Shown here piece after piece: positions 1 through 16,608 of a stretch of DNA of 64,000 nt. The notes beneath the pieces are model-generated. The model searched no databases. It was not told where the DNA came from and saw only the letters and a list, made by a program, of their open reading frames with translations. The stretch spans positions 1 to 64,000 of the forward strand of contig NZ_NFKT01000021.1 in the NCBI RefSeq assembly GCF_002160525.1. The letters are read 5' to 3'. The first letter of the stretch is position 1; every line of letters begins with the position of its first letter. The position numbers and the translations under genes are program-made. The DNA is from Lachnoclostridium sp. An169 (GTDB lineage: Bacteria > Bacillota > Clostridia > Lachnospirales > Lachnospiraceae).

Positions 1-300
1 GCGTATATTTGCAGATGGAGCAGGTACGTTCTCTGGAACCTGTTTCGGTTGTGGTAGGCTCCTTTGTTATCGTCCAATCATCGAAAGTATGGTTGCCCAC
101 TTCAGTTTTATCGCCGCAGGAGCATTCCTTCCAGTGCTGGGTTTCATCCTTCTGCCAGTCGCCGTAGCTGTGCCCATGAACCGGAATCGTCTCTTCCTGC
201 GTATATTTGCAGATGGAGCAGGTACGTTCTCTGGAACCTGTTTCGGTTGTGGTAGGCTCCTTTGTTATCGTCCAATCACCGAAAGTATGGTCGGCTACAG
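1..300 (-). repeat. 198-bp tandem repeat inside the secreted protein gene
   Basis: Bases 1 to about 102 are nearly identical to bases 199 to about 300, a period of 198 bp (66 codons). The unit encodes one Cys/His repeat (a CSICKY block, an HSYGDW block and a CSCGDK block). The array probably continues left of the window. Near-identity at the DNA level points to recent duplication or ongoing gene conversion. Confidence 0.85.
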
Positions 301-1012
301 TATCTTGATTAACTTCTTTGCAGTAGTAGCATACCTTCCAGTGTGTAGTCGAACCGCTACTCCAGTCGTCGGTATAGTAATGTTGGTGTTCCCTGTATCT
401 ATCAATCTGCTCATAGCCGCAGGTAAGGCACCGCCTTTTACATACGTCATACTTCGTATTTACATCATAATAGATCAGCTCCCATTCGCCGAAGTTATGG
501 GGGCTCTTTTCAGTTTCCTCTCCACAGCTGCACTCCTTCCAGTGATTGGTGCCATCATTCTTCCAGCCGCCGAAGCTGTGTTCATGGGGGGGAGTAGGCC
601 CCTCTCCGCCGCCGGTATTGCCGCCGATTGCCCAGTCGCCCCAGGCGTCTCTCTTCCATACGGTATAAGAGCCGTCCGGATCGCCGGTAAGGTAAATCTG
701 TCTGGCCCGTACTTTAAGCGTATACGCATCCTTCGACTGAGTGATATTCTTCGAATCGAAAAATACCCACCTGTCTATCTCAACGCTTTCTGTCTGGAGT
801 ACCTGGCCGTTCAGTACCAGCTGCGCCTCATACTCAAGATACGTGCTGCCTGATGCGTTGGCAGGTTTATCCCACATTACCTGGTTTCCATATCCCGACC
901 AGCGGGGATTTTCCGGCACATATTGCCCCGCCGCCAACACTGTCGCCGGCAGTATTCCTACCACCATGCATAAGAACAGCAGCAGCGCGAGCAAACTCTT
1001 TTTTCGAAGCAT
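1..1012 (-). CDS. Secreted Cys/His-repeat protein, C-terminus beyond window
   Basis: The protein starts MLRKKSLLALLLF with a typical signal peptide ending near VLAAG, so it should be exported. An in-frame ATG lies two codons upstream (1018), but AGGAGG is 7 bases from the ATG at 1012 and only 1 base from the other. After the signal comes a domain of about 100 residues (starting QYVPENPRWSGYGNQV) shared with the next gene. Repeats follow with HEHSFGGW, HWKECSCG and CSICKY motifs, a pattern common in clostridial surface proteins and possibly metal-binding. The coding frame is open to the window edge, so length and any cell-wall anchor are unknown. It is the last visible gene of the leftward kinase/FHA operon. 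The function is not known. Confidence 0.85.
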   Translation of the reverse strand, partial: MLRKKSLLALLLFLCMVVGILPATVLAAGQYVPENPRWSGYGNQVMWDKPANASGSTYLEYEAQLVLNGQVLQTESVEIDRWVFFDSKNITQSKDAYTLKVRARQIYLTGDPDGSYTVWKRDAWGDWAIGGNTGGGEGPTPPHEHSFGGWKNDGTNHWKECSCGEETEKSPHNFGEWELIYYDVNTKYDVCKRRCLTCGYEQIDRYREHQHYYTDDWSSGSTTHWKVCYYCKEVNQDTVADHTFGDWTITKEPTTTETGSRERTCSICKYTQEETIPVHGHSYGDWQKDETQHWKECSCGDKTEVGNHTFDDWTITKEPTTTETGSRERTCSICKYT

Positions 1013-1037
1013 CTTCATTCCTCCTTTACAAATAGAA

Positions 1038-2265
1038 TCAGTTTTTGGTATTTCCGCCGTCCGGTTCGGACGGATCCTTTCCTCCGGCTGGCGGGTTATC
1101 CTGTGCCTTCCGCTTTTTCCTGTATAAGAATACAAGCAGCAGCGCCAGCAGGACAGCCGCCGGTATCGCGGCCAACAGAACAATGTAGACGGCGTTTCCA
1201 TCCTTTTCGTCTCCCGGCAACGGGTCGGGTTGGATGATTGCAGAAACGGAGAAGGGGGTATCGGAACCGAGTACGGCATACCGGCCCGGGCCGCCGGCTT
1301 CAAAGACCAGGCTGCCGTCTTCGGCCTTTGCCTCTATGCGCTCCGGCTCGCCGTCCACCCGCACCGCCTGGTAATGGGCGTAGCCCTCCAGATGGCTGTT
1401 CATCGGGATGCGCACCGTCATGGCGCTGTCTTTGATTTCCACCGGCTCCCCGTTCTGGCGGATGCTGATCTCATACACCGACAGCAGGCCGTCCAGCGCT
1501 TCTTTCAGCTCCGGCTTCTCTTCAAGCAGGCTCTCCGCCTCCATGACGCCGGCGTACAGCTCCACACCCTCCGGAACCGCTTCGGACAGGGAGACGGAAA
1601 CGCCGGTATTTTCATCGGTCAGCTCCGCGATGCCTTCGCCGCCGGAATCCTGCCCGTTATCCGTGGTTTCCCCGGTGGCTGACGTCTGCGCGGCGTCCCT
1701 TGTCTCGGCGTAGCCGCAGACGGTGCAGATGCGGCTCTCTGTATTGCCATCCGCCGTCCATGCGCCGAAGCTGTGATCCGCCGCATCCTTTTTGTCGCCG
1801 CAGGAGCACGCCTGCCAGTGCTGTGCCGCGTCGTGCTTTTGGGTATAGCTGTGCTCATGGGACGGTTCGGCTTCTCCGACGTCCGCCACCATATACTGGC
1901 CGTCCGGGTCGCCCACGATCATGATCCATCTGGCACGCACCCGTATGGTGTACTCCTCCTGCGGCCGCGTCACCACATCGTTTGTGAAAAACAAATAGGT
2001 GTCGATTTCCACTGCCTTGGACTCGACCACATCGTCGCCCAGCAGCAGCTGTGCCTCGTATTCAAAGCTATCGCCGGAGGCCGCTCCTGCCGGCCGGTCC
2101 CACTGCACCTGGTTTTGGTAGCCCGACCAGCGGGGGTTCCCTGGCACATATTCCCCCGCCGCCGAAACAGACAGGGGAAGGGCCGCGATCATCAGGCATA
2201 CCGCCAGCAGCATACTGAAAAGCCATGCGCCTTTTTGCCGCCCCGGCGGTTTTTTCCCTGCGCAT
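1038..2265 (-). CDS. Cys/His-repeat membrane-anchored protein, frameshifted at its start
   Basis: This is a paralog of the preceding secreted protein: a shared N-terminal domain (EYVPGNPRWSGYQNQV), one HEHSYTQKHDAAQHW/CSCGDK/CTVCGY repeat, a long acidic domain, and a C-terminal transmembrane helix followed by YRKKRK. The only start with a good Shine-Dalgarno (GGAGG, 9 bases away) is the ATG at 2265. It is joined to the main frame only if one base is skipped in the A6 run at 2250-2255. That gives MRREKPPGRQKGAWLFSMLL, a normal signal peptide, and 408 codons. Without the skip, the first in-frame ATG lies inside the signal peptide and has no ribosome-binding site. A sequencing error, phase variation or slippage are all possible. 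Confidence 0.75.
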
Positions 2266-2281
2266 ACGCAATCTCCTCCCT

Positions 2282-2899
2282 TTATCGCACCGGAGCGCCC
2301 TGCGAGGAAAGCGGTGCTCCGCATGCTCCGCAGAAGCGGCTTCCGGGCGGTATCTCCGCCCCGCACTGGGGGCATTTGTTTTCCAGCTTCGCCCCGCAGT
2401 TGTTGCAGAATTTGGCGCCGGCCGCACACTGGGTTTTGCAGGCGGGGCAAACCACCATACCCGCGTTCAGTTCCGCCCCGGCGTTTCGCACCACCACCGA
2501 GCGGCCGCCGGAGACGATGCACTGCTCAATCACCTGGAAAATCTCTTCCGGCAGCTTTTTCTGCTTGTAGGCGCCCACACCGGCAGTCACCGCCAGCGGC
2601 CATGCGATAAACCATCCCAGCACGCCAGCGCCGATCTTATCCGACCATTCGCCCTGACCCACGGTGACGTTTAAGTTGTCATCCATTCGGATCATCTGCA
2701 CCGTCGTAGCCATCCTCATGCCGGCAATGGTCTTCCAGCCGTCTTTTTCCTGACGGCCCTGCACCACATAGCCTTCTGTGGTTTCGGCACTCTGTACCTC
2801 CATCCCCTTAGTGGATGAAAGGAACGCCTCTACCGCGTTTGCCACCACCTGGGTACTCATGCCGGCAGGCAGCCGGAATACTCTCGATTCATTTGCCAT
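2282..2899 (-). CDS. Double zinc-ribbon protein
   Basis: A 205-residue protein. Residues 1-130 form an alpha/beta domain with a hydrophobic stretch (GAGVLGWFIAWPLAVTAGVG). Residues 145-195 hold two zinc ribbons: CPACKTQC...CNNCG and CPQCGAEI...CGACG. Such ribbons often mediate protein contacts in signalling proteins. It lies between the 103-residue protein and the secreted Cys/His proteins in one leftward operon, and the two kinases carry a single related ribbon at their N-termini. No enzyme motif is visible. The role as an adaptor of the kinase system is an inference. Confidence 0.8.
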   Translation of the reverse strand: MANESRVFRLPAGMSTQVVANAVEAFLSSTKGMEVQSAETTEGYVVQGRQEKDGWKTIAGMRMATTVQMIRMDDNLNVTVGQGEWSDKIGAGVLGWFIAWPLAVTAGVGAYKQKKLPEEIFQVIEQCIVSGGRSVVVRNAGAELNAGMVVCPACKTQCAAGAKFCNNCGAKLENKCPQCGAEIPPGSRFCGACGAPLSSQGAPVR

Positions 2900-2912
2900 C
2901 TCGTCTTCCTCC

Positions 2913-3224
2913 TCATTCTAAAGCCTGTACCTCATCGATATGCTGCAGTACGCTGTCTGCCAGATAACGTACTGCCAGCTGTTTTTCCTCCTCGCTCAGG
3001 CCGCTTGCCGGACGGAGCATGGAAACATGGAGGATCGATGTGTTGATGGTCTGTTCCGTCACGGCAAAGGCGTACTCACTGGTATGCCCCAGCACCTTCG
3101 CCTCCGCCTTGATATCGCCGACCAGCGCCTGCTCGTATTGGCAGCCCATCCGGTCCAGCACGTCAAAGACGGCGTACACAGCCATGCGGCGGGGACAGTT
3201 GACATTTCTTTTTAGACTCAGCAC
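2913..3224 (-). CDS. Uncharacterised 103-residue protein
   Basis: I do not recognise a family. The protein is soluble, with no signal peptide or membrane segment, and alternates predicted beta strands and helices (start MLSLKRNVNCPRR, C-terminal helix SEEEKQLAVRYLADSVLQHI). It sits 13 bases upstream of the double zinc-ribbon gene and 35 bases downstream of the first kinase on the same strand. It is therefore probably cotranscribed with the phospho-signalling genes, which is the only clue to its role. Confidence 0.7.
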   Translation of the reverse strand: MLSLKRNVNCPRRMAVYAVFDVLDRMGCQYEQALVGDIKAEAKVLGHTSEYAFAVTEQTINTSILHVSMLRPASGLSEEEKQLAVRYLADSVLQHIDEVQALE

Positions 3225-3259
3225 TTTTTTCTCCTTTCCCCCGGAAACGGGTCTGTCAT

Positions 3260-5422
3260 CTATTTCACAGGTCGAATCGTATTGGTCGTGTCCAATATCA
3301 TTCCATTGGTGATAAGAGCCTCCTCAGTATATGCGGATGCCGTAATCGCAAACACATATCCGTCGATTTCTCCGGCGTAAACCTCCGTATAGGCCGTCTG
3401 ACCATCTAAAGTATAGGTATATCTGTCAACAATCCAATCGATTCCGCCAGTTTCATGTTCCCAGCGGCCCTCCTCACGTTTGAGGCCGGGCTGGTTCACC
3501 ATCACTTCTGCTATGCCGTCCAGCCAGACTTCCTTATTAAATTGATCACTCGATGGTCTGCACTGTATTTCTACCTGCACGTTGCCTGCCTCGTTGACCA
3601 TGCGCAGCAGGTTTTCATTGACCACGTTGAAGGTAATCTCTCCGTCGCTCTCCCAGTAGATAAATTGGAACGGAAGCCGTTCATCATAAAACCGCTGACT
3701 GTTGGTGCCTGCGGGACCGCTGCTTTGGAAGGAATCCATTGCTGCGAATATTTCCGCCTGCGCCTTCTCATCCCCCTGAGGATAGGAGCCGATAAGATTG
3801 TAGCAGCCAAACCCATTCTGGCATTCGATGAACGCCGCCAAAAATTCCATGGTTGTGCCTCCGCTTTCGGTAGCAGAAAACTGGATCAAGTAGGTGTCCA
3901 AAGAACTGCCCTCCCGGTAACCCCGGCTGAGGATCTCATGCTTTGTGATATTGGTGCTCTTCAGCAGTCCGATATAATACTGGACATATTTCTCCGCGTT
4001 CTCCTCCACATCAGAAAGGGTATACACCGGAAAACCGGCGGCCTTATCGTAAAATCCCACCTGCAGGGTAGCGCTCCCATCCGATGAAGCAAAAGCTCCG
4101 CTGCCGGACTCTGTTTCTGCATACCCCTGGGGGATCCCCATGGTGATATTCAGATACTCCTGGGCGTAGTCCTGCAAGGCGACATCGTCTACGCCCTCGG
4201 GTTCCTGCACTGTTATATCGAAAGGAGTGCCGGATGGCCCGTCAGAAGAACCCGGCTCTGCTTTCCCGCTGGTCAGCGCACCGATCCCCGCTACTGCTCC
4301 CCAGACGCCCAGACCCAGCACAGCAACGCACAGCACCAGCGCCGTGATCTGTACCCCGATATGGCTCCGCCGGAATCTAGTCCAAAGCCCCGGCTTTCCA
4401 TCGGAACCTGCAGCCGTTTGACCGGATGGCACAGCCATGGTACGGTGATGGAAAGACGCCGGGGTTTTCCCGGTAATCCCTTCAATAAAGGCCTCCATGG
4501 TGGAGAAACGATCCTCCGCTTTTACCGCGAGCGCCTTCATGATCGCCTGTTCCACCTGCGGAGGCAGGGGAACGCCCAGCTCCGAGGGCTTTTTCAGCGT
4601 ATCGTTATGGACCCGCATGATGGAATCCGGCGGCAGCTCCCCGGTCACGCAGCGGTACAGGGTGGCGCCCATGGCGTATACATCCGTCCACGGCCCCTGG
4701 TTCCCCTTACTGGAATACTGCTCCTCCGGCGCGTAGCCATGTTTCAGGATGACCGACACGCTTTTTTCATCCCCAATAGAAAACCGGGCCGCGCCGAAAT
4801 CCAGCAGCTTGCTCTCCCCCTTGGAGGTAATGGAGATGTTGTCCGGGCTGATATCCCGGTGGGTCAGATTCAGGGCATGAACCTGCGTCAACGCCTGCAT
4901 CACCGGCATCAGGATGGTCAGCGCCTGGTCATAGGGAATCTTCCCGCCCTGGGATGCAACGTATGCCTTCAGGCTCATGCCGTCGATATATTCCATCACG
5001 AAATAGGCCGTGTTGTTTTCCTTAAAATAATTCTGCACCGACACGATGTTCGGCGTATTCTGCAGTTTGGCAAGGATCCGCGCTTCCTCTAAAAAGCGCT
5101 CCATGCCGTTTTGATAATCCTCCTGGCCCCGTCCGGTCAGTGCCACGCTGTACTTATCGGAATGCCGGGTAGCAAGACCGGAGGGCATATATTCCTTGAC
5201 GGCTACCTTAATCTCCAGCGTCAGGTCATAGCCCAGATAGGTGATGCCGAACCCGCCCACGCCCAGAACCTTTCCGGTCATGTAGCGGCCGTTCAGCAGC
5301 GTTCCCATGGGCAGCGCCAAAAACGGCTGCTCCTCCTCCGCATTAAACCCGCAGTGGGGGCAGACAGGGGAATCGTCCGGCTTTTCCTGAAAGCAGCCAT
5401 AGCAGATATGTTCCAAGTTCAT
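3260..5422 (-). CDS. Zinc-ribbon Ser/Thr protein kinase with ectodomain (copy 1)
   Basis: A 720-residue Hanks-type kinase. A zinc ribbon comes first (C7, C10, C21, C24), then the kinase domain at about 45-315. It has the glycine loop GVGGFG at 54-59, lysine K76, HRD at 188-190 with asparagine four residues later (ISPDN), DFG at 208-210 and APE at 231-233, so it should be active. A transmembrane helix lies near residue 355-380, followed by about 320 residues outside the cell forming two domains. The layout matches PknB-like receptors, but without PASTA repeats. It is a paralog of the gene at 6709-8970. The start codon overlaps the stop of a small membrane ORF (ATGA). Likely partners are the PP2C phosphatase and FHA proteins upstream in the operon. 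Confidence 0.93.
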   Translation of the reverse strand: MNLEHICYGCFQEKPDDSPVCPHCGFNAEEEQPFLALPMGTLLNGRYMTGKVLGVGGFGITYLGYDLTLEIKVAVKEYMPSGLATRHSDKYSVALTGRGQEDYQNGMERFLEEARILAKLQNTPNIVSVQNYFKENNTAYFVMEYIDGMSLKAYVASQGGKIPYDQALTILMPVMQALTQVHALNLTHRDISPDNISITSKGESKLLDFGAARFSIGDEKSVSVILKHGYAPEEQYSSKGNQGPWTDVYAMGATLYRCVTGELPPDSIMRVHNDTLKKPSELGVPLPPQVEQAIMKALAVKAEDRFSTMEAFIEGITGKTPASFHHRTMAVPSGQTAAGSDGKPGLWTRFRRSHIGVQITALVLCVAVLGLGVWGAVAGIGALTSGKAEPGSSDGPSGTPFDITVQEPEGVDDVALQDYAQEYLNITMGIPQGYAETESGSGAFASSDGSATLQVGFYDKAAGFPVYTLSDVEENAEKYVQYYIGLLKSTNITKHEILSRGYREGSSLDTYLIQFSATESGGTTMEFLAAFIECQNGFGCYNLIGSYPQGDEKAQAEIFAAMDSFQSSGPAGTNSQRFYDERLPFQFIYWESDGEITFNVVNENLLRMVNEAGNVQVEIQCRPSSDQFNKEVWLDGIAEVMVNQPGLKREEGRWEHETGGIDWIVDRYTYTLDGQTAYTEVYAGEIDGYVFAITASAYTEEALITNGMILDTTNTIRPVK

Positions 5423-5553
5423 GTTTCACTCCTCTTCTTTGTACTTGCGCCCCGGCCTTTCACCCGCAACAGCAGAAAAACCACTTCCATCAACGCGATC
5501 ATACCCAGCTCTTCCAGAATGAACGGAAAGACCTTCATCATCTCCTCAATCAA
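5419..5553 (-). CDS. Small membrane protein, 44 residues
   Basis: A short reading frame starting at TTG 5553 (GGGAG 9 bases upstream) or at the ATG pair just after it. It has one hydrophobic helix (GMIALMEVVFLLLRV) and a basic tail. Its TGA overlaps the start of the kinase gene as ATGA, typical of translational coupling. Upstream in the same frame there is a C-S-V-C pair without a usual start codon. It is too short for family assignment. Confidence 0.5.
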   Translation of the reverse strand: MIEEMMKVFPFILEELGMIALMEVVFLLLRVKGRGASTKKRSET

Positions 5554-5630
5554 GGGCTGTTTCTCCCTTTCCTCCAGACAAACCGAACAGAATACGGCCC
5601 CAGCGTCTTGGATCGTCGCAATCTATAACT

Positions 5631-6074
5631 CTAATAAAAATACTCTAATAAAAAACAGGCGATGGGCGTTCCCACAATAAAAAGCCACCCGACGCACAGA
5701 AGGCAGATCTGAGTCATCCGATACATCTTGACATCGGCGGGACAGAAGTATTTTTCCGGATCAGATGGGTCAATGTAAATCTCCACCTCAGTTCCGATCT
5801 TCTTCTGCGCCTGATGATAGGCCAAATCGATGCCGGTGTTTTTTTGATAGACGCAGTCCATATACTCGTATTGGTATATCATAAAATAATGGTAGGAATG
5901 CTTGATCCGAATCCTCAGCGGTTCGATGACGGTCGCTTTTAGAAACACCGTGCAGCCGCTCCCTCTCTGCGTCTTTTTCTTGTAAAAGTGGGCAAGCACG
6001 AAAAATAACGCGTAAAGCGGATATGTTATCGCGCATACAATCAGAATCCACGCAATATCCTCTGCAAAATTCAT
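5631..6074 (-). CDS. DUF3592-like membrane protein, 147 residues
   Basis: Two transmembrane helices (residues about 5-28 and 122-145) flank a beta-rich domain of about 90 residues. That domain contains YQKNTGIDLAYHQAQKKIG and the YIDPSDPEKYFCPAD signature seen in DUF3592-type proteins. The start at 6074 is chosen because AAGGAAGG lies 8 bases upstream; a longer form is possible but lacks this. It is related to the frameshifted gene just upstream and to the gene at 9035-9550, so the operon carries three copies of this fold. Function unknown; placement next to kinases suggests a membrane accessory role. Confidence 0.8.
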   Translation of the reverse strand: MNFAEDIAWILIVCAITYPLYALFFVLAHFYKKKTQRGSGCTVFLKATVIEPLRIRIKHSYHYFMIYQYEYMDCVYQKNTGIDLAYHQAQKKIGTEVEIYIDPSDPEKYFCPADVKMYRMTQICLLCVGWLFIVGTPIACFLLEYFY

Positions 6075-6156
6075 ACGTGCCGCCTTCCTTTCCGCCCGCA
6101 CCAATCTTTTTTAGGGAAACCGCCTGCCGCAGGTTTCGCTGCGGCAGGCACTGAAG

Positions 6157-6703
6157 CTATATTGTTAGCCACATGACTCCAATCATAATCAAAACCGCAA
6201 TGACGAGAAGAGCGACGATCAGGTAGGCAAGGCGCTGCTGAAAGTAACCCTCTTCCTCCTCCAGGCAGTAAAAGCTGGTAGGTTTGACCGGATCGATAAA
6301 AAGTGTAAGCTCCGTTCCCACCTTTTTTCCGGGCCTGTTCCTCCATTGCCGGGACATCACCGATCTGTTCATAGGTCTCTCCCCGATAGGTATACCGGTA
6401 CACGGGATAATAATAGAGTCCCAGCATCGCCGTTTTCACCCCCAGGGAAGCCGTTTTCCCAACGGAGCCGCCTGCACCGCTGAGAAGATGAGCCACGGAA
6501 ACAGCCCCCGCGGCCTTTGCCAGACGATACTTGCTCTTGACATGATAGTTTACTGCGTCCACAATGGCCGCCCGGCATTCCGCCGTGCAGGCGCTCTTTT
6601 TCTCCGCCGTTTTCCTTTTCTTCCTGTAGAACAGCCAGACGGAAACCAGAAGCGTGACAAGGCCGATGCCGCTCAGAACGAGAATTGGAATAAGATCTTC
6701 CAT
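6157..6703 (-). CDS. DUF3592-like membrane protein with an A6 frameshift
   Basis: The start MEDLIPILVLSG at 6703 follows the kinase stop with a GGGTGA site. The first 130 residues and the last 50 lie in different frames that meet at an A6 run on this strand (6323-6328). Removing one A gives ARKKVGTELTLFIDPV, which matches the corresponding segment of the 147-residue paralog (QKKIGTEVEIYIDPSD), and a 181-residue product with an N-terminal helix and a C-terminal helix. As written the gene is broken. A homopolymer error in the sequence or transcriptional slippage would each restore it. Confidence 0.75.
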
Positions 6704-6708
6704 GCAAA

Positions 6709-8970
6709 TCACCCGCTATAAGGCCGGACGGAGGCCATCGCCTGATTATACAGCGCTGTGATCGTGTCCTTGTTGGAATCATTGAACATGCAGCCCACAA
6801 AATAACACTCGCCGTCGATCATAGCCCCCGCATAACTGAAGTTCTTGCCGGCCATCGTAAAATCATAGGCCAGCCATTCCACGCCGCCGGAGCGGAAGGT
6901 ATAAGTTTCGTTATTGGTGCCGCTTAAATCCTTTTGGTATTGCACCACTTGTTCCGGGGTGCTTATGTTAAATTCGGAAGCCCTTCCAACCTCCACGCCA
7001 AAGCCTTCTCCGAGCGGGGCGTCTCTGTCTGCCTGAGTAGGATACAGGTACATCTCATAGACGGTTCCGATACCATTCACATTCAGCGTAGCTTCCAAAT
7101 CCACACCGCCGCCCTGGGCAAGAGACGTATCTACGATGACCTTTACACCGGCTCGCTTTGCACACCACATCTCGTAACTTACTTCCGGCGCACCGTTGCT
7201 CTCAAAGGACTGGATGATGGAATGGATTTCCGCTTCGGCAACCTCATCCCCCTTGGGATAGCTCGTGATGATGAAATAACAGCCGAAATCATACCCCTCC
7301 ACCGCCATAATGACCACTTCGTTGGAGACGCCTTCGCTGTCGGTGCCTTCAAGATAGATTTGATAGGCGCCTGCGCTTCCCACCTGATCGGGTCCGGCAG
7401 CAAGGATCTGATAATCCGAAACTTCAAACAGGTTCTGCATCAGGTTGGCGGCAATAGCTTCTCTCTGGGATTCCACATCGGCAAGGGAGTAGATGGGTCC
7501 GTCAATGTTCCAAAGATAATCCATCATCATACCGCAGCCTTTAGCCTCATTGATAAAAATCGTCTGCTCCTCAACCCTCGTATAATCCGACGGGATCTCA
7601 ATCGTAGCGTTGAGGATGCCAAGATCCTGCGCCACCATTTCCGCTGGAGGTTCTGTAGTAGGCTCTGGGTCTGTTGTCGGTTCCGGATTACTCGTCTGCG
7701 GTTGGCTGATGACAGGCGTATTCCCACCGCCGCCCCCTCCTGTCGGCCTTTTTTCCCCTCCGCCGGAAAGCGTGATAGGAAGGATAATACAAAGGGCGAT
7801 CACCGCCAGCAGCCCGCCGCCGGAAACCCAGGCAACCACCGGATTGGCTTTCATATAGGAAAGGAACCGGGAGAATGCGGATGGCTTTCCCTCCGCGGCG
7901 CCATCTACGCTATAGGAGGTCGACTGATAGGCGGTCTGCCCATAAGCCCCCTGCCCGTAAGCGGTGGCCTGGGTGCGCTGGCTAATGCTGGCCGCCACCT
8001 GATCCTGTACGGAAACGCGCCCGTTCAGCGCCCCGATAAATGCCTCCATGTTGGGGAAACGATCCTCGGTCCTTACCGACAGGGCTTTCATGATGGCGTT
8101 TTCCACATGAGCCGGAATGCGGAATCCCAGCTCCGACGGCCTTTTCATGGTATCCCCATGGATCCGTTCCACCGAATCTGGCGGAAGCTGCCCGGTAATG
8201 CAGCGGTACAGGGTAGCGCCCATGGCGTAAACATCCGTCCACGGTCCCTGATTGCCGTGGCTGGAATACTGTTCCTCCGGCGCGTAGCCATGTTTTAAGA
8301 TGACCGACACGCTCTTGCCGTCCCCCAGTGCGAACCGCGCCGCGCCGAAATCCAGCAGACGGCTTTCGCCTTTGGATGTGATATAGATATTGTCCGGGCT
8401 GATGTCCCGGTGCAGGAGGTTCAGCGCATGCACCTGAACCAGCGCTTCCATGATCGGCTGCAGAATGGCAATCGCCTGGTTATAGGGGATCTTATCCCCG
8501 TTTTTTGCCAGGTAGGCTTTCAGGCTCATACCGTCTATGTACTCCATCACAAAGTATGCGGTGCCGTTCTCTTTGAAATAGTTCTGCACCGATACGATAT
8601 GCGGGGTGTTTTGCAGCTTGGCAAGGATCTTCGCTTCATCCAAAAAGCGCTCCATACCGTACTGGTAATCCTCCTCCACCCGTCCGGTCAGCGCCACACT
8701 ATAGTGGTCCGGATGCCTTGTGGCCAGGGCGGAGGGCATATATTCTTTAATCGCAACCTTGATCTCCAGTGTCAGGTCGTATCCCAGATAGGTGATACCG
8801 AACCCGCCAATGCCAAGCACCTTTCCTACCAGATATCTCCCGTTTAGGATCGTACCCAGGGGCAGCGCAAGATAGGGCTGCTCGTCGTTCTCATTAAATC
8901 CGCATCGGGGGCATGGAATCCCCGGTTCTTTTTCCGCGAAACAGCCATAACAAACACGTTCCGGATTCAT
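6709..8970 (-). CDS. Zinc-ribbon Ser/Thr protein kinase with ectodomain (copy 2)
   Basis: A 753-residue paralog of the kinase at 3260-5422. It has a zinc ribbon at C7, C10, C20 and C23, kinase lysine K75, HRD at 187-189, DFG at 207-209 and an intact APE motif. After the kinase domain comes a linker rich in Q, A and Y, a transmembrane helix (VVAWVSGGGLLAVIALCIIL), a Pro/Thr-rich spacer (repeated TTDPEPTTEPP) and an ectodomain of about 300 residues. Kinase domains of the two copies are very similar while ectodomains differ clearly, which fits two receptors with different inputs feeding one pathway. Confidence 0.93.
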   Translation of the reverse strand: MNPERVCYGCFAEKEPGIPCPRCGFNENDEQPYLALPLGTILNGRYLVGKVLGIGGFGITYLGYDLTLEIKVAIKEYMPSALATRHPDHYSVALTGRVEEDYQYGMERFLDEAKILAKLQNTPHIVSVQNYFKENGTAYFVMEYIDGMSLKAYLAKNGDKIPYNQAIAILQPIMEALVQVHALNLLHRDISPDNIYITSKGESRLLDFGAARFALGDGKSVSVILKHGYAPEEQYSSHGNQGPWTDVYAMGATLYRCITGQLPPDSVERIHGDTMKRPSELGFRIPAHVENAIMKALSVRTEDRFPNMEAFIGALNGRVSVQDQVAASISQRTQATAYGQGAYGQTAYQSTSYSVDGAAEGKPSAFSRFLSYMKANPVVAWVSGGGLLAVIALCIILPITLSGGGEKRPTGGGGGGNTPVISQPQTSNPEPTTDPEPTTEPPAEMVAQDLGILNATIEIPSDYTRVEEQTIFINEAKGCGMMMDYLWNIDGPIYSLADVESQREAIAANLMQNLFEVSDYQILAAGPDQVGSAGAYQIYLEGTDSEGVSNEVVIMAVEGYDFGCYFIITSYPKGDEVAEAEIHSIIQSFESNGAPEVSYEMWCAKRAGVKVIVDTSLAQGGGVDLEATLNVNGIGTVYEMYLYPTQADRDAPLGEGFGVEVGRASEFNISTPEQVVQYQKDLSGTNNETYTFRSGGVEWLAYDFTMAGKNFSYAGAMIDGECYFVGCMFNDSNKDTITALYNQAMASVRPYSG

Positions 8971-9034
8971 TCTCCCACCTCCTCAAGCAATGTATTTTAA
9001 GTATAAAACGATGTATTTTGATAGCAAAATACAG

Positions 9035-9550
9035 TCACTCCTTCCGATTTTTGGACCAGGCATCGTAACACAGATCACCCAGCAGGAGCAATCCCAGCGC
9101 CACCAGAAGCCCGATCCACCCGCCCCAGCCCACTAAAGGAAAAAGTGCAAAGGCAACTCCCAGCACAGACCAGATAAGGGCGCTGATTACACGTTCCCTA
9201 TTCTCAGAGGGGCAGGAAAAGTACCGGGGATTCTTTTCATCCACAAAGAGCACCTCATAACTACCGACTTTGATTTCGTCCTTTTTGGAATACTCTACCC
9301 GGGATACTACCCGATACTCCTGTCCATCCAATGTGTACTGGTAGACCGGATGGTATTTATAGTTGGTAATGAAGAAATCGGTGAAATCGTCGTCTGTCCA
9401 GCTGACGGCCACATCGCAGATGACGGCGTTCACTCTTCTCCGGCAGCGACGCTTTGACCGTACAGTCCGACAGAATGCCAAAATGATTCCGAAGAGAAAC
9501 AAACATACTCCAAAGAACATAATATCCCCCATCGCGTCCGTTGCATTCAT
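9035..9550 (-). CDS. DUF3592-like membrane protein, 171 residues
   Basis: An N-terminal transmembrane helix (residues 9-27), then a beta-rich domain with YKYHPVYQYTLDGQEYRVV and a VLFVDEKNPRYFSCPSENRE signature, then two C-terminal helices. It is a paralog of the genes at 5631 and 6157. Its start overlaps the stop of the 108-residue gene (ATGA). The 64 bases to the following kinase start hold a short AT-rich stretch and a possible internal promoter, but nothing convincing. Confidence 0.8.
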   Translation of the reverse strand: MNATDAMGDIMFFGVCLFLFGIILAFCRTVRSKRRCRRRVNAVICDVAVSWTDDDFTDFFITNYKYHPVYQYTLDGQEYRVVSRVEYSKKDEIKVGSYEVLFVDEKNPRYFSCPSENRERVISALIWSVLGVAFALFPLVGWGGWIGLLVALGLLLLGDLCYDAWSKNRKE

Positions 9551-9873
9551 GCTCCAAACGATTTTATCTCAGCTATGACAAAGAGTTCCTCCGATACCTG
9601 CCGCACCCGGTCGACATGCCGCAAGAGCAGCGCCTCCAGCCATTTTTCTGCATTGGCCGCTTTTAGAAATTCAATCTGTACTTCCAGGGGTTCAATGTAG
9701 AACTCACCTGCATACGCCAGCGCCCCTTCACCTTCCGACAGCGCCGGGAACTCGTGGAGTTCTTTCATTTCACCGTCTGCAGTCAGGTGGAAGACAGCCG
9801 CCAGTTCCCGGCCGGCGGCGTCCTCTCCCCACGCTTCCTGGATTCTTCCGTTTTTTAAACAATACCCTGCCAT
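9547..9873 (-). CDS. Uncharacterised 108-residue protein
   Basis: No family is recognised. It is a soluble acidic protein (MAGYCLKNGRIQEAWG...) with predicted beta strands first and two helices at the end (FLKAANAEKWLEALLLRHVDRV). It sits 6 bases after the protease/FHA gene and overlaps the next gene by 4 bases, so it is translated as part of the same operon. Confidence 0.7.
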   Translation of the reverse strand: MAGYCLKNGRIQEAWGEDAAGRELAAVFHLTADGEMKELHEFPALSEGEGALAYAGEFYIEPLEVQIEFLKAANAEKWLEALLLRHVDRVRQVSEELFVIAEIKSFGA

Positions 9874-9879
9874 AACGGG

Positions 9880-11205
9880 TTACTCCTTGCTCACCACAAA
9901 CCGGTTGGCGTTGTCGCACAGGTAGAAGGTGTCCCCGATCGACAATTTTTCCGCCACATTCGCCGTCAGCTTTTTGCCGTTGCCCAGGAACGTGCCGTAG
10001 GACGATCCCAGATCGGTGATGATAAAGCAGTCTTCATTCGGGTCGTAGACTACCTGGCAGTGCCGCCCGCTGATACCCGGCGTGTTTTTATCGAATACGA
10101 TGTTACAGGTTGCCGGGTCTCGGCCGATGACCACCTTGCCCTTTAACAGGTCAAAGCTCTGGCCAGAGTATTTTCCTGTCACGCCGCGCAGCACAGCCCG
10201 TTTTTCCACAGGGCCGCGGCCGCCTCTTGCAGGCGCTTTTCCAGATCCCATACCTGCGGCAGCGCCGGCAGGTGCCGGAGCCCCCTGTACGCCCTTCTGG
10301 GACGTTACCAGCAGGATGATGCCGCCGATGAGCGCCAGCACGCCGATGGGCAGGAACACATAGGCAAACCAGGGCTGGGTCCAGGAGAGTCCGCCGCCTG
10401 CCATGGTGTATTCGATTCTTTCGCTGTCCAGAGCTTTGATTAATTCCGCAGAGGTAATGGCAAAGTTTACGCCTTCGCTCTTGCCCTGCTCATCCACTGC
10501 GCCGGAAGCGTTGATTCCAATCAAATTTCCCCGTTCATCTACCAACGGGCCGCCGGAATTGCCGTGATTGATATATACATCCATCTGAAACGCGTCGTAG
10601 CTGCTCCATGCCGGCTTAGTGCGCTTGCTGATGATCCCCTTGGTCAGTGTAATGTCATCCTCGTCGTAGGTGTTGAATTGCTGGCTTTGGCTTGCCACGC
10701 CCGGATACCCCAGCGCGAAAGCGGTGTCGCCGACAGCAACATCATCTGCGTCCCTGATGGGAATGGCTTCTCGTTCATCCGTCTTTGACGGCAATCTGAT
10801 AATCGCAATATCCTTCTCATTGGAAGCAGAATAATAGACCACCTCCGCTGTAACATAATCATTTTCCGCTGCAGAGAAGTATACCTGCACGCCTGCCGAA
10901 GATACTTGCTCCGCATATACTTTGGGACCCATATAGCCGTATTCCACCACATGGCCGTTGGTCACAATATATTCCACCGGTTCGCCGGGTTTCCCGATGG
11001 CAAAACCAGTGCCCATGGCACCGGCGGACTGACCATCGGTAAGCTGGAGATAGGAGTACACCATGACGACGCTCTTGCGCGCCTCATAGGGGTCCGTACC
11101 GCCCCCGCCTACCAAGCCCAATACGCCGAACACGCCGGCGGCCAGGCCAATAACCAGCAGCAGGATGGCAACAACCTGCTTGCTCGATGACTTTTTCGCT
11201 TCCAT
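9880..11205 (-). CDS. Membrane trypsin-like protease with cytoplasmic FHA domain
   Basis: A 441-residue protein. An N-terminal transmembrane helix (11-34) leads to an outside S1C/HtrA-like protease domain with the full triad H85 (TNGHVV), D132 (KDIAII) and S217 (GNSGGP). A second helix (about 285-305) returns to the cytoplasm. A Gly/Ala/Pro linker follows, then a C-terminal FHA domain with the IGRDP, SGRH and GSSYGTFLGNG motifs that bind phosphothreonine. There is no PDZ domain. This joins extracellular proteolysis to reading of cytoplasmic Thr phosphorylation. Kinases and a PP2C phosphatase in the same operon are the likely writers and erasers. Confidence 0.92.
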   Translation of the reverse strand: MEAKKSSSKQVVAILLLVIGLAAGVFGVLGLVGGGGTDPYEARKSVVMVYSYLQLTDGQSAGAMGTGFAIGKPGEPVEYIVTNGHVVEYGYMGPKVYAEQVSSAGVQVYFSAAENDYVTAEVVYYSASNEKDIAIIRLPSKTDEREAIPIRDADDVAVGDTAFALGYPGVASQSQQFNTYDEDDITLTKGIISKRTKPAWSSYDAFQMDVYINHGNSGGPLVDERGNLIGINASGAVDEQGKSEGVNFAITSAELIKALDSERIEYTMAGGGLSWTQPWFAYVFLPIGVLALIGGIILLVTSQKGVQGAPAPAGAAAGMGSGKAPARGGRGPVEKRAVLRGVTGKYSGQSFDLLKGKVVIGRDPATCNIVFDKNTPGISGRHCQVVYDPNEDCFIITDLGSSYGTFLGNGKKLTANVAEKLSIGDTFYLCDNANRFVVSKE

Positions 11206-12137
11206 TATGATTCCTCCTCATTTTTCCCATGGTATTTCAATGCGATTGCCGTATAGTTATCCTGGCCCGGCTTTCCGGCGGCCAGGATTTCCTCCTCCAG
11301 CTTGTCGCAGCACGCCTGGGAAGAGAGCGCCATGGCTTCCCGAATCTGCTTCAAGGTCAGTGTATCGCTGACGCCGTCCGAGCAGAGCAGCAGCGCGTCC
11401 TCCGGCTGGAGAAGAAAGGGCATACGGGTATAGTCGCATGTTACTTCTTCTTTTCCTATGTACTCCGAAAGGGCTCCCGCCTGAGGATCTTGAAACGCTT
11501 CCTCCACGGGGAACGCCCCGTCCAGTGCCCTCAAAATCAAATCGTTCTTAAATTCCTGCCGGGCATTTAACCCATAGAGTTTGTTTTCCCTGAGCAGGAA
11601 CAAATCGCTGTCGCCTACGCACCAGAAAGAGAGGCGATTCTCTTTGAGCAGGGCAGCCACCAGGGTAGTTCCCCCGTGCCCGCGAAACTGCTGATAGACT
11701 CTGGCGCTTCGCTGGTATACCCAGCCGGGCACATCGCTGTCATCTGTCCAGGGAAAGATTCCCACCAGCTGGGAGGCGGTTTCCGCAGCGATCATGCCGC
11801 CCTCCGCCATACCGCCCATGCCGTCGCACAGCACAGCAAGCAGCCCGTCTTCCTCATAACGATCCATGCGGGAGATGCCGAAAGCGTCCTGCTGTTCTTC
11901 CCGGCTGCCAACGCCCTGTAGGTTGGCAAGCTCCAGTTCCGGCAGCGGTTCCGGACGTTCCGTAATCGGTTCTTCCACCGCCTGATCACCCCGCTTCTTT
12001 TTCTTCTTCCGCCGTATCAGGAAAAAGGCGAGAATCAGCGCCAATAGAAGCGCTGCGCCCGCCGCAACCGCCATCCAGACGCGGATGACGGTATCCGGAA
12101 ACAGCGGCTGGTTTAACCATGAAAGTACACGCTCCAT
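11205..12137 (-). CDS. Membrane-anchored PP2C-type Ser/Thr phosphatase
   Basis: A 310-residue protein with an N-terminal transmembrane helix (about 20-42), a basic KKKKKR stop-transfer and a PPM/PP2C domain. The metal-binding aspartates are visible in EQQDAFG (D84), LCDGMGG (D105), LCSDGVSDTL and GQDNYTA. It should remove phosphate from Ser/Thr targets of the two kinases. The stop overlaps the start of the protease gene (TAATG). Unlike the usual PrpC-PrkC pair, the phosphatase is itself membrane-bound. Confidence 0.93.
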   Translation of the reverse strand: MERVLSWLNQPLFPDTVIRVWMAVAAGAALLLALILAFFLIRRKKKKKRGDQAVEEPITERPEPLPELELANLQGVGSREEQQDAFGISRMDRYEEDGLLAVLCDGMGGMAEGGMIAAETASQLVGIFPWTDDSDVPGWVYQRSARVYQQFRGHGGTTLVAALLKENRLSFWCVGDSDLFLLRENKLYGLNARQEFKNDLILRALDGAFPVEEAFQDPQAGALSEYIGKEEVTCDYTRMPFLLQPEDALLLCSDGVSDTLTLKQIREAMALSSQACCDKLEEEILAAGKPGQDNYTAIALKYHGKNEEES

Positions 12138-12140
12138 CCT

Positions 12141-12680
12141 TTACTCCTCATTCCACTGGAATTGCTCGCCGCACAGGGGCAGGAAGAGAAGCTGGCTCTT
12201 TCCCACCTCGATCACATCGTAGGCTTTTAAGGGGCGTACCATTTCCACCTGCTCGTCGTTGCAGTAAGTGATGCCCCTGCCCTGGCCGGGAGAAAGGGAA
12301 AAGCTGTTATGCTTGGCGTCATATGTAACCAATGCATGGCTTTCTCTGGATACAGTATCGTCATCCGCCAGGGCCACGTCCATCGCCGCCGCCCTTCCTA
12401 TGAAGTTTCTGCCTGCTACCAGCTTATAATCTGCGCCGCGATGGGGACCGGAAACACAGACCAAGAATCCTACTGCAGGATCAATACCGATCTTCTTTTT
12501 AATAATGCCCACCGTCTTGCCTCTGTCTGCTTCCGGCGCAGCGCCGCCCGGCACAGCAGCCACGGTCTTCCCTACCGTTCCGGCCGCAACCGTCTTGCCG
12601 ACCCCGGCGCCCTCCTGGCAGTAGGGGCAGCTATCGAATCTGGATTCATCGTAAAAATGGCCATTGTCACACTGTCTCAT
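12141..12680 (-). CDS. FHA-domain protein with zinc ribbon and three GKTV sites
   Basis: A 179-residue protein. A short zinc-binding motif comes first (C4, H8, C18, C21), then a flexible segment with the tetrapeptide GKTV three times (T30, T39, T56), then an FHA domain at about 85-170 (FIGR, SRESHA). FHA proteins such as GarA carry threonines near the N-terminus that are phosphorylated by a cognate kinase and then bound by their own FHA domain; the GKTV repeats suggest the same here (inference). It is the first gene of the leftward operon. AGGAGG lies 8 bases before the ATG, and leader element A lies about 100 bases upstream. Confidence 0.88.
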   Translation of the reverse strand: MRQCDNGHFYDESRFDSCPYCQEGAGVGKTVAAGTVGKTVAAVPGGAAPEADRGKTVGIIKKKIGIDPAVGFLVCVSGPHRGADYKLVAGRNFIGRAAAMDVALADDDTVSRESHALVTYDAKHNSFSLSPGQGRGITYCNDEQVEMVRPLKAYDVIEVGKSQLLFLPLCGEQFQWNEE

Positions 12681-14672: not shown

Positions 14673-16139
14673 TTGTACCATTGCGGAGAAAGGGGGTGGA
14701 ATGGGACGTATAGTATAAAGAAAAGCTTCACAAATCCAAAATCCATTTATGCGATTCTGCTGCTTAGTGTTTTTACTTTTCTATTTCTTGGAGCCGAGTA
14801 CCTATATGTAAACATGATCTCGCTTACGGCAGGGGAAGAAAAAACGGTGATTACGCAAAACTACGCGTTAGGAATAAGCGCTGTCGGTTTTTTGCTCTAT
14901 CCGCTGTTTCATCGCCTTTTGAAAAGGCGGGTACAAATCGTTGGACTTTTTATCCTTGCACTAGCAGCGGCAGTATGCACTTTTTTGGTTCAAAAACATG
15001 TTTCTTATTCGTCCACTCTGCTCTCCGGAATGGCATTGTTCCTGTTTCTGGGGATATTGGGAAGCGCGGCCCACTACCTGTTTTTCAAACTGGCGAGGGA
15101 TCGCACCCATCTGGCGCGTATGGTTGGTGTCTCCTATGCCCTTGGGATCTTCCTGCAGTTTCTAAATAACAATCTTGTGGATCTGGAAACTGCGGAAGCC
15201 TTGATACTTTCACTCTTTGCCCTTGTAGCGTTAGCGCTGTTGCTGAAGGCAGAAAGGCTTTGCCGCCAGGAAAACGCAGAAGCGGAAGAACTCCAGTCCC
15301 CCGCCATAGAGGATGATGGGAAGGGAACCCGAAAGAAGATCGCCGCCGGCGGACTCCTTGCACTGCTTGTCATCCTGATGGCATGTATCTTCAGTACGCT
15401 GGACAACGCGGTCACCATGCATCATGCAGCAGGCACTGACATCGGGCAATGGCCGCGGCTTTTGCTGGCGGTAAGCGGCCTTTCTGCCGGCTTTCTTTTT
15501 GATATCCGAAAGCGGAAATTTATGGCCATGATGATGTACTGCGTCATGCTGATGTCCGTCATCTGTGTGGTAGTACTCAAGCTGGGCGGCCCGTTTTTGA
15601 TCGGCCTGATCGTATTTTATCTTTCGGCTGGATTTTTTGTGGTATTCTTCACCACCAGCTTTCTGGATTTTGCCCGCCATATGCCCACGCCAGCGCTGTG
15701 GGCCGGTATGGGGCGCGCCATGAATAACGTGAGCGCCGCTTTGCTTACCAACGCCTCTGTAGCGTTGCTTGTTTCTGACAGCAATGGCATGGCATCCATC
15801 ATTCTGGCACTGGTCCTGTTTGTGGCCGTCAGCGTAGTCATCTATCTTTATACAGCCTGGATGCCGGTTTCATCCGGCACCCCCAAGGATATCCCGACAG
15901 ACCTGGACCCTCAGGAAGCGTTCCGTCTCTTGTCGGAGCTGTTTATCCTTACGCCCAAGGAAACCGAAGTATTTGACAAGCTGGTCAATTCAGAGGAAAG
16001 TATTCAGGAGATTGCAGATGGACTGTATCTATCCCGGCGAACCTGTCAGCGGCATATCGCGGCGATCTATGAGAAAGCAGGTGTAAAATCACGCATGGGA
16101 TTGTACCAGCTCTACATAGAAAAACAGCGCAGGCCATGA
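14673..16139 (+). CDS. MFS-like membrane domain fused to LuxR DNA-binding domain
   Basis: About 488 residues. Twelve or so hydrophobic helices occupy residues 20-400, resembling a transporter fold, and a LuxR-type helix-turn-helix ends the protein (FILTPKETEVFDKLVNSEES, EIADGLYLSRRTCQRHIAAI). Such fusions are known one-component membrane regulators in gut Actinobacteria and Clostridia that sense a ligand through the membrane part. The start is unclear. TTG 14673 lies only 3 bases after the predicted transcript start. The strong AGAAAGGGGGTGG site at 14688-14700 precedes no normal in-frame start; the ATG there leads to a stop after 5 codons. Leader elements A-C are possible targets (inference). 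Confidence 0.85.
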   Translation: MYHCGERGWNGTYSIKKSFTNPKSIYAILLLSVFTFLFLGAEYLYVNMISLTAGEEKTVITQNYALGISAVGFLLYPLFHRLLKRRVQIVGLFILALAAAVCTFLVQKHVSYSSTLLSGMALFLFLGILGSAAHYLFFKLARDRTHLARMVGVSYALGIFLQFLNNNLVDLETAEALILSLFALVALALLLKAERLCRQENAEAEELQSPAIEDDGKGTRKKIAAGGLLALLVILMACIFSTLDNAVTMHHAAGTDIGQWPRLLLAVSGLSAGFLFDIRKRKFMAMMMYCVMLMSVICVVVLKLGGPFLIGLIVFYLSAGFFVVFFTTSFLDFARHMPTPALWAGMGRAMNNVSAALLTNASVALLVSDSNGMASIILALVLFVAVSVVIYLYTAWMPVSSGTPKDIPTDLDPQEAFRLLSELFILTPKETEVFDKLVNSEESIQEIADGLYLSRRTCQRHIAAIYEKAGVKSRMGLYQLYIEKQRRP

Positions 16140-16158: not shown

Positions 16159-16608
16159 ATGAAGAGGATTAAAATTGCTGTTTTGCTGATTTTATTGTGC
16201 GTACTGGCGGGGTGTTCCCCAAAAGACACATCGCTTCGGGCCTATTGCACCGAAAGCCAGCAGGAATTTCTGGATCAGTCGCTGGAAGAGCTGCCGGTCG
16301 CGCTTACCTATCATCACAACGATAACATCCTGGGACGCTACGAAACGACGGATGAAGAAATCATCTCCGAAATCCTGCAGGCATTACGGGAAACGACCAT
16401 TGTATCCAAAGCTTTCAGCGGCTCTACAGACCGCCGGATCCTGGAGTTTGAGACAGCGGATGGGGATACCTGCCTCTTCTGGTTTGATGAAAACCGGTTC
16501 CATGGCGCCGGCGGAACATCCTATGTGCTTTCCGGCGACGAGGAGATTTGGGATCTGGCGCGGAAAATCCAAGAAACATATCCAGAGTACAGGGAAGCGA
16601 TGGAGTAA
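16159..16608 (+). CDS. Lipoprotein, paralog of the one at 12865
   Basis: 149 residues with a lipobox (LLCVLAGC, Cys at 19) and the domain shared with 12865-13374: RAYCTESQQEFLDQ, YHHNDN, CLFWFDENRFHGAGG, SYVLSGDEEIWDL. The Thr/Pro spacer of the other copy is missing. It starts 20 bases after the MFS/LuxR gene behind AGAAAGGGG, so the two are probably one operon, ended by a strong hairpin. Confidence 0.82.
   Translation: MKRIKIAVLLILLCVLAGCSPKDTSLRAYCTESQQEFLDQSLEELPVALTYHHNDNILGRYETTDEEIISEILQALRETTIVSKAFSGSTDRRILEFETADGDTCLFWFDENRFHGAGGTSYVLSGDEEIWDLARKIQETYPEYREAME

Follow-up and report, generated by a model that had tools for sequence, protein, structure and literature searches.

A run of genes at the left end of the window, the whole 64,000-nucleotide stretch of Lachnoclostridium sp. 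An169 DNA analysed here (contig NZ_NFKT01000021.1, positions 1–64,000, assembly GCF_002160525.1, genome size 4.85 Mb), can be read, with a probability of about one half, as a mobile transmembrane phospho-signalling module controlling a surface protease from inside the cell. Window position 1 is the start of the contig (G000:C14:1), and the genes concerned form a single leftward run from position 12680 down to this end, with gaps of −34 to +208 nucleotides from the adaptor through the double zinc-ribbon gene. The run comprises, in order, a zinc finger–FHA adaptor, a PP2C phosphatase, a protease with a cytoplasmic FHA tail, the small protein u108, a DUF3592-like protein, the kinase KinA, two further DUF3592-like proteins, the kinase KinB, the small protein u103, a double zinc-ribbon protein and two secreted Cys/His-repeat proteins, SecL and SecM. 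An earlier note on this DNA had already listed its parts as lying in one leftward run, which is borne out by Pfam matches and the order of the open reading frames (ORFs); it overlooked u108 and u103, both belonging to the conserved core, as well as a LuxR-type regulator. The core, located at 2913–12680, and the regulator consist of the following genes:

12141..12680, minus strand: zinc finger–FHA adaptor, 179 amino acids (Pfam FHA 24.2 bits and Yop-YscD_cpl 42.9 bits, both above cut-off), with linker Thr motifs at T30, T39 and T56
11205..12137, minus strand: membrane PP2C phosphatase (Pfam PP2C_2 26.3 and SpoIIE 29.1, above cut-off)
9880..11205, minus strand: protease of the architecture transmembrane (TM)–trypsin–TM–FHA, 441 amino acids (Pfam Trypsin_2 89.9, FHA 52.1), TM segments assigned by hydropathy; triad H85, D132 and S217, FHA residues R362, S379 and H382
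9547..9873, minus strand: u108 (108 amino acids), likely left over from the C-terminal part of a second PP2C
6709..8970, minus strand: KinA, zinc ribbon–kinase–TM–ectodomain (Pfam Pkinase 107.1)
3260..5422, minus strand: KinB, zinc ribbon–kinase–TM–ectodomain (Pfam Pkinase 111.2)
2913..3224, minus strand: u103 (103 amino acids), a small conserved protein with a predicted helix-grip-like fold
14673..16139, plus strand: LuxR-type membrane regulator, divergent from the run (GerE E 9.9e-8)

A scan of a genome collection revealed eight loci with a close relative of the protease, namely in Catenibacillus, Massiliimalia, Hominifimenecus, Gemmiger, Anaeromassilibacillus (two loci) and two metagenome-assembled genomes. 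Catenibacillus and Hominifimenecus represent the Lachnospiraceae, Anaeromassilibacillus the Acutalibacteraceae, and Massiliimalia and Gemmiger the Oscillospiraceae; the window genome shares its GTDB family with G067, the genome whose matching contig has the coordinates of the Catenibacillus locus (L033). The seven loci of sufficient length (the Gemmiger locus L037, a 3.2 kb contig, was left out) were complemented by two found class-wide, L070 and L071, to give nine other core loci. The order adaptor–PP2C–protease–u108–KinA is maintained in all nine, u108 and KinA being separated by a DUF3592 gene in some of them. A clear KinB is present in the first seven, whereas L070 possesses a second, shorter kinase-like ORF, and L071 harbors a single kinase. 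Both u103 and a homologue of the LuxR-type regulator are present in 9/9; the regulator gene is divergent in seven loci and codirectional with the operon in L038 (30% identity) and L039 (a partial match), where the homology is weaker. No match of u108, u103 or the regulator was found at E ≤ 1e-5 in the other 43 regions examined; at E ≤ 1e-3, u108 matches second PP2Cs in L043, L044, L074 and L075. In addition, L188 carries the core with one kinase, and L186 ends after KinA with no regulator seen. The adaptor is the most conserved core protein, with a mean identity of 89% vs. 63–73% for the others (six relatives; four for KinB).

Co-occurrence in other genomes had been proposed by the earlier note as the check on its suggestion of a joint system, a single system being deemed unlikely if the genes did not travel together. 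The genes do co-occur in relatives, including those from other families, and the kinase, the phosphatase, the adaptor and the FHA-tailed protease are conserved together as a unit. The secreted Cys/His-repeat proteins and the double zinc-ribbon protein, which the note had included in the system, fall outside this core: the double zinc ribbon, the first DUF3592-like protein (9035–9550) and SecL have matches only in L033, L036 and L040. Since they are present in only three of the nine other core loci, the double zinc ribbon and the secreted proteins are considered to be accessory.

The FHA tail of the protease is shared by all 33 trypsin ORFs found in 52 fetched regions, most of which were chosen by similarity to the window protease or adaptor. 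On the same strand and within 10 kb, a PP2C is encoded beside 31 of these 33, a kinase beside 30 and a zinc finger–FHA adaptor beside 24; by comparison, none of 20 untailed trypsin-domain proteins (two of them from the window genome; region usually about 10 kb on each side) had a kinase, PP2C or FHA gene. The search for the control set added three FHA-tailed trypsins, two with signalling neighbours and one without. When the phylum was searched with a profile of 16 sequences, the protease was detected in 7/398 genomes at E ≤ 1e-40, including the window genome and one already known, and four of the five new regions contained PP2C, kinase and adaptor alike. When all FHA-tailed trypsins were pooled, a PP2C was nearby in 37/41 and a kinase in 36/41 vs. 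0/20 for the untailed ones (Fisher p 1.7e-12 and 8.5e-12, respectively), the counts not being independent trials because the loci are related. Overall, genes for signalling proteins accompany the FHA tail. In a class-wide sample of 391 genomes, the protease was found in 7 (E ≤ 1e-40); the adaptor, at E ≤ 1e-15, was present in 31, all 7 among them. The fusion of a protease with an FHA domain, initially described as unusual, is found repeatedly in Clostridia as well as in further families of the phylum, so it is no one-off; at the same time, no paper on a trypsin–TM–FHA protein was recognised in the open-access literature, a coverage that leaves out most subscription papers.

The residues expected in working parts are largely retained. 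Each residue of the trypsin triad is kept in 31/33 proteases, the Ser and His of the FHA tail in 33/33, and an Arg or Lys at the third binding position likewise in 33/33. The kinase Lys, the HRD Asp and the DFG Asp are kept in 69–71 of 74 aligned relatives, and the four catalytic Asp residues in 64–67 of 68 aligned PP2Cs. Judging by these residues, the kinase, PP2C, protease and FHA parts look active. In the relatives, FHA tails are also carried by vWA proteins, polytopic membrane proteins and kinases, with several FHA-tailed membrane proteins per cluster; one vWA protein with an FHA tail was confirmed by Pfam (L041), the others being recognised by the D-x-SGS pattern.

A plausible ligand for these tails is suggested by the adaptor itself, since its linker between the zinc finger and the FHA domain repeats a Thr motif, G-K-T-V-[AG]-[LIF]. 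In 36 non-redundant linkers out of 43 (two further adaptors, L058 and L117, were dropped, their linkers not being delimitable), Lys at −1, Val at +1 and Leu at +3 of Thr exceed expectation 4.0-, 3.4- and 4.1-fold, respectively. With training and scoring on separate halves of the set, z values of 9.3 and 12.8 were obtained, with 0/2000 shuffles reaching the observed value; four fresh adaptors gave a z of 5.7. Most linkers hold several motifs rather than one. High-scoring Thr residues make up 63/187 in the adaptor linkers (the training set itself) and about 1% in the other proteins scored from these regions (kinases, PP2Cs and proteases): 2/137 in the kinase juxtamembrane segments, 12/946 in the kinase domains, 13/1416 in the ectodomains and 2/86 in the protease linker. 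The motif as a general feature of the kinases or of the protease linker was rejected in view of this rarity. A site scoring above 1.5 is found in one of seven adaptors from loci without a kinase match (L116, L118–L120 and L122–L124) vs. all 29 remaining ones, which include L048 and L113, where the contig ends before any kinase is seen. In-frame stops were flagged in some adaptor matches; in the regions of three of the flagged genomes (L111, L115 and L117) the ORFs are open. A hydrophobic residue at +3 fits the preference of FHA domains, and the adaptor linker is likely a phospho-hub read by FHA tails.

In the mechanism proposed for the module, the kinase ectodomains would sense an extracellular cue, and the zinc-ribbon-linked kinase domains would phosphorylate the Thr of the tandem G-K-T-V-x-[LIF] motifs observed in the adaptor linker. 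The phosphorylated adaptor would then serve as a multivalent hub bound by FHA domains, chiefly by the protease tail with its intact binding residues and, in the relatives, also by the vWA–TM–FHA and polytopic TM–FHA proteins. As a result, the protease would be gathered with the kinases at the membrane and might cut surface or secreted proteins, until the PP2C, whose catalytic residues are present, would reset the hub.

The adaptor could, in principle, operate as a GarA/OdhI-like switch folding on its own phosphothreonine and mainly controlling cytosolic enzymes, with the FHA tail of the protease as a handle for docking to the kinases. In both, FHA is preceded by an N-terminal segment, which is phosphorylatable in GarA/OdhI and predicted to be so here, and self-binding of the phosphorylated segment is characteristic of GarA/OdhI. 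However, the adaptor and protease genes are no more than 10 kb apart in 24/33 cases, most linkers display several motifs instead of one, and the NCBIfam OdhI model gives 26.4 bits vs. a cut-off of 200, so such a switch appears unlikely.

The indication of where the specificity of the module resides comes from the comparison of four cassettes: those of the window, L033 (Catenibacillus) and two Anaeromassilibacillus strains (L036 and L040). In long aligned stretches, the DNA identity to the window is 97.6–97.9% for L033 and 93–95% for L036 and L040. The measured segments of the four cassettes are 96–100% identical except for three islands, where identity falls to 60–67%:

10391..11111, minus strand: protease ectodomain, about amino acids 32–271 (swapped relative to L036 and L040)
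6671..7241, minus strand: distal ectodomain of KinA, from about amino acid 577 (swapped relative to L033, L036 and L040)
3251..3731, minus strand: distal ectodomain of KinB, from about amino acid 564 (swapped relative to L036 and L040)

The nucleotide identity of the protease ectodomain amounts to 62% with L036 and 65% with L040 (96–97% in the flanks on both sides) and to 99.7% with L033. The distal ectodomain of KinA is 60–67% identical to those of L033, L036 and L040, its proximal part being 98.7–99.8% identical, and the distal ectodomain of KinB is 64–65% identical to L036 and L040 and 100% to L033. At the protein level, the ectodomain of the window protease shows 86% identity to L034 and 58% to L036, with the respective figures for its FHA region being 87% and 96%, as expected of a single gene which, by these alignments, has two histories. 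The protease ectodomain diverges even between L036 and L040 (64%). Thus, three outer modules were exchanged as cassettes while the inner machinery stayed constant; since the outer modules are swapped and the inside is constant, specificity probably resides outside and is altered by recombination. In L033 (10701–13958), the KinA ectodomain is tandemly duplicated, likely a trace of the route of ectodomain recombination. No sign of cross-exchange between the KinA and KinB ectodomains was found, their identity being 13–28%. Lesser islands occur in a kinase linker (L033, L036 and L040), the DUF3592 region (L036) and the regulator (L036); the L040 island at 5591–7241 contains missing sequence. Among the four cassettes, SecL splits like KinB, the window and L033 vs. 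L036 and L040, which is regarded as a lead only.

The fact that the swapped parts are the protease and the kinase ectodomains would also suit an outside-in circuit, in which the protease trims the kinase ectodomains or co-encoded secreted proteins and thereby sets the kinase signal, its FHA tail docking to autophosphorylated kinases. Such a circuit is doubtful, given that the alleles are not strictly paired (L033 combines window-type protease and KinB alleles with the other KinA allele) and that the kinases seldom contain the Thr motif.

Control of the protease from inside has to be weighed against a number of observations that speak against it. For nine of the 33 FHA-tailed trypsins, no same-strand adaptor was seen within 10 kb in the region fetched; the FHA-tailed trypsins of L131, L159 and L045 have neither kinase nor PP2C nearby, with L045 standing alone; and L187 has adaptor–PP2C–protease–u108 with no kinase, u103 or regulator in the vicinity. 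L058 represents a kinase cluster whose adaptor has no linker. The Thr motif was initially spotted by eye, which is why the split-half test was run, and one high-scoring Thr of the window lies outside the adaptor, in the DUF3592-like gene at 6071–6712. In the position following HRD, where Lys is usual, the window kinases and 46/74 of their relatives have Ser. The protease might, instead, be constitutively active. Finally, in one other genus (L070, L071 and L188), the ectodomain variability is no higher than that of the FHA domain; general hypervariability of the ectodomains is contradicted within this genus, and hence swapping is claimed for the mobile group only.

A broader interpretation, offered tentatively, is that of a horizontally moving surface recognition system, whose kinase and protease ectodomains are interchangeable by recombination on a constant phosphothreonine-hub chassis. 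If so, a strain could alter the targets that it senses and cleaves at its exterior (a rival, a phage, a host surface or a sibling), leaving inner signalling untouched. The targets described for bacterial Ser/Thr kinases are usually found in the cytosol. In the present module, the anatomy is directed to the outside: surface proteases and vWA proteins carry cytoplasmic phosphothreonine readers beside a Thr-motif adaptor found where the kinases are. This offers a concrete and testable inside-out mechanism in common gut Clostridia, and the cassette swap indicates the probable site of specificity and suggests what selects on the ectodomains. In the open literature, which lacks most subscription papers, no account was found of a family of surface proteins that combine cytoplasmic FHA tails, a multi-site adaptor at their centre and swapped ectodomains.

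The similarity of the window to L033, L036 and L040 stops at position 16750 in all three, where they abut a sigma-factor gene (Sigma70 region 4), a type of gene linked to conjugative elements; the flanks of L033 are 99.8% identical to those of both L036 and L040. Beyond this boundary, the window (20258–48419) encodes a lysozyme–CHAP protein, a sortase, a TraG/VirB4-like ATPase, a 2500-amino-acid Eco57I-like protein and a SpaA-repeat surface protein. Judging by these predicted products, the genes are such as occur in conjugative elements, and the mobile version of the cassette lies beside them. Recent transfer and the conjugation genes next door, together with the combination of two kinases and one PP2C, are compatible with the cassette being a defence or toxin-like kinase–phosphatase cargo of a conjugative element, resembling KKP of Pf prophages. 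In KKP, one kinase carries a cold-shock domain and one an FHA domain, accompanied by a PP2C; KinA and KinB lack these fusions, with no Pfam match to either domain. The matches returned by PADLOC resemble generic hits to kinase or trypsin domains, so that a defence system was rejected, and L034 and L035 sit, by eye, among ordinary-looking chromosomal genes (no search for mobile genes was made there). Such a cargo is, therefore, highly improbable. Plasmid, phage and viral-contig origins were rejected as well, since no carrier emerged in the collections searched: the plasmid collection gave no match to the cassette, the similarity of 17 phage records is confined to the trypsin part, with none covering 80% of the query, and the viral contigs contain no relative.

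Circuits of a kinase, a PP2C and an FHA protein are already known from type VI secretion system (T6SS) regulation, GarA/OdhI and ArnA/ArnB. In the T6SS threonine phosphorylation pathway, PpkA, PppA and Fha1 constitute the triad of kinase, PP2C and FHA protein; the window likewise has the three together, but the predicted output is a membrane protease. The GarA/OdhI proteins, which act with PknG or PknB in Actinobacteria, are described as small FHA proteins with a phosphorylatable flexible segment (PMC8546545). The module shares with them the Ser/Thr kinase and the small FHA protein with a segment preceding FHA; it differs in the zinc finger in front of a multi-Thr linker and in the membrane effectors with FHA tails. 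ArnA of Sulfolobus combines a zinc finger with FHA and binds its vWA partner ArnB in a phosphorylation-dependent manner (PMC6509490); the relatives studied here also pair zinc finger–FHA with vWA proteins, yet the latter are membrane-bound with FHA tails of their own, and a protease is added. The trypsin-fold domain with a membrane anchor is reminiscent of HtrA, DegS and MarP, from which the protease is distinguished by its cytoplasmic FHA tail; all NCBIfam models remain below cut-off (degP 95.3 bits vs. 416.2), and FHA is present with no PDZ match. The MoxR-vWA and GTPase-centred conflict systems (Kaur 2020, PMC7159879) feature, in the part of the paper compared, a zinc-ribbon kinase, PP2C, vWA neighbours and trypsin domains; no MoxR, iSTAND or GTPase was noticed in the core of the module, and protease–TM–FHA is absent from that part of their description. 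The NCBIfam PASTA kinase model (PknB/Stk1) scores 161.4 and 162.9 vs. a cut-off of 450, with no PASTA match on KinA or KinB.

As for the small core proteins, u108 aligns with the C-terminal end of the second PP2C encoded downstream of the protease in the relatives; hhalign gives a probability of 96.5% over 58 columns, as against 0.3% for the control u103. The catalytic Asp residues are missing from u108 in this alignment. Its AlphaFold2 model (pLDDT 76) yields mostly PP2C among the Foldseek matches, none of them significant (best E 0.35). Hence, u108 probably derives from the C-terminal end of a second PP2C and has lost the catalytic residues. The u103 model (pLDDT 92) is helix-grip-like, with a best Foldseek E of 7.6e-4.

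The remaining genes of the run and its surroundings are as follows:

9035..9550, minus strand: DUF3592-like membrane protein, accessory (Pfam 16.9 bits, below the cut-off of 25.3)
6071..6712, minus strand: second DUF3592-like gene (no Pfam match)
5631..6104, minus strand: third DUF3592-like membrane protein, accessory (Pfam 21.9 bits, below the cut-off of 25.3)
2282..2899, minus strand: double zinc-ribbon protein, accessory (Pfam DZR 44.3)
1038..2252, minus strand: SecL, accessory secreted Cys/His-repeat protein with an uncertain start codon
2..1015, minus strand: SecM, secreted Cys/His-repeat protein, accessory, truncated by the contig end
12865..13374, minus strand: lipoprotein-like cassette protein, with a relative at 16159–16608

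The list of parts in the earlier note is right, the three DUF3592-like proteins being its weaker points: two of them fall short of the Pfam cut-off, with 16.9 and 21.9 bits, and the product of 6071–6712 has no match. The final third of the latter is in a different frame from its L033 homologue, which reaches 28.8 bits, above the cut-off; the change may reflect a frameshift either in the window copy or in the assembly. DUF3592 proteins are present in L033, L036 and L040, and a different one is encoded downstream in L039 (Pfam), so that, by these matches, they are recurrent rather than constant. Contig C9 ends in the same repeat as the SecM end, and thus it is probably the neighbour of the window contig.

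The absence of type VII secretion genes, noted earlier, agrees with a genome-wide search: models of WXG100 and EssA gave no match in the whole genome (98% complete), with matches in the control genomes, and a type VII link was rejected for the window host. In L056, a 4.5 kb contig, a PPE/WXG100-like ORF (2–367; PPE 27.0, cut-off 26; WXG100 24.4, below 27.3) lies near an FHA-tailed trypsin, a possible type VII secretion link in a relative. The L116 region contains a related zinc finger–FHA adaptor and a PP2C beside VgrG-like and RHS genes (Pfam), with no kinase match; by eye, the gene order is similar in L118, L119 and L121–L124, suggestive of T6SS-like phospho-control in other Clostridia.

Several further arrangements of FHA-tailed proteins were encountered. 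In L044 (13698–18338), Pfam places an FHA tail on a dynamin-like GTPase, which together with another GTPase-like ORF adjoins a trypsin–FHA cluster. L051–L055 represent a sister arrangement of an FHA-tailed trypsin, a PP2C and a kinase without the zinc ribbon, followed in several of them by a very large secreted protein, with Ig-like domains in L053. In L132 (9281–13962), one PP2C and one kinase are flanked by two genes of FHA-tailed trypsins.

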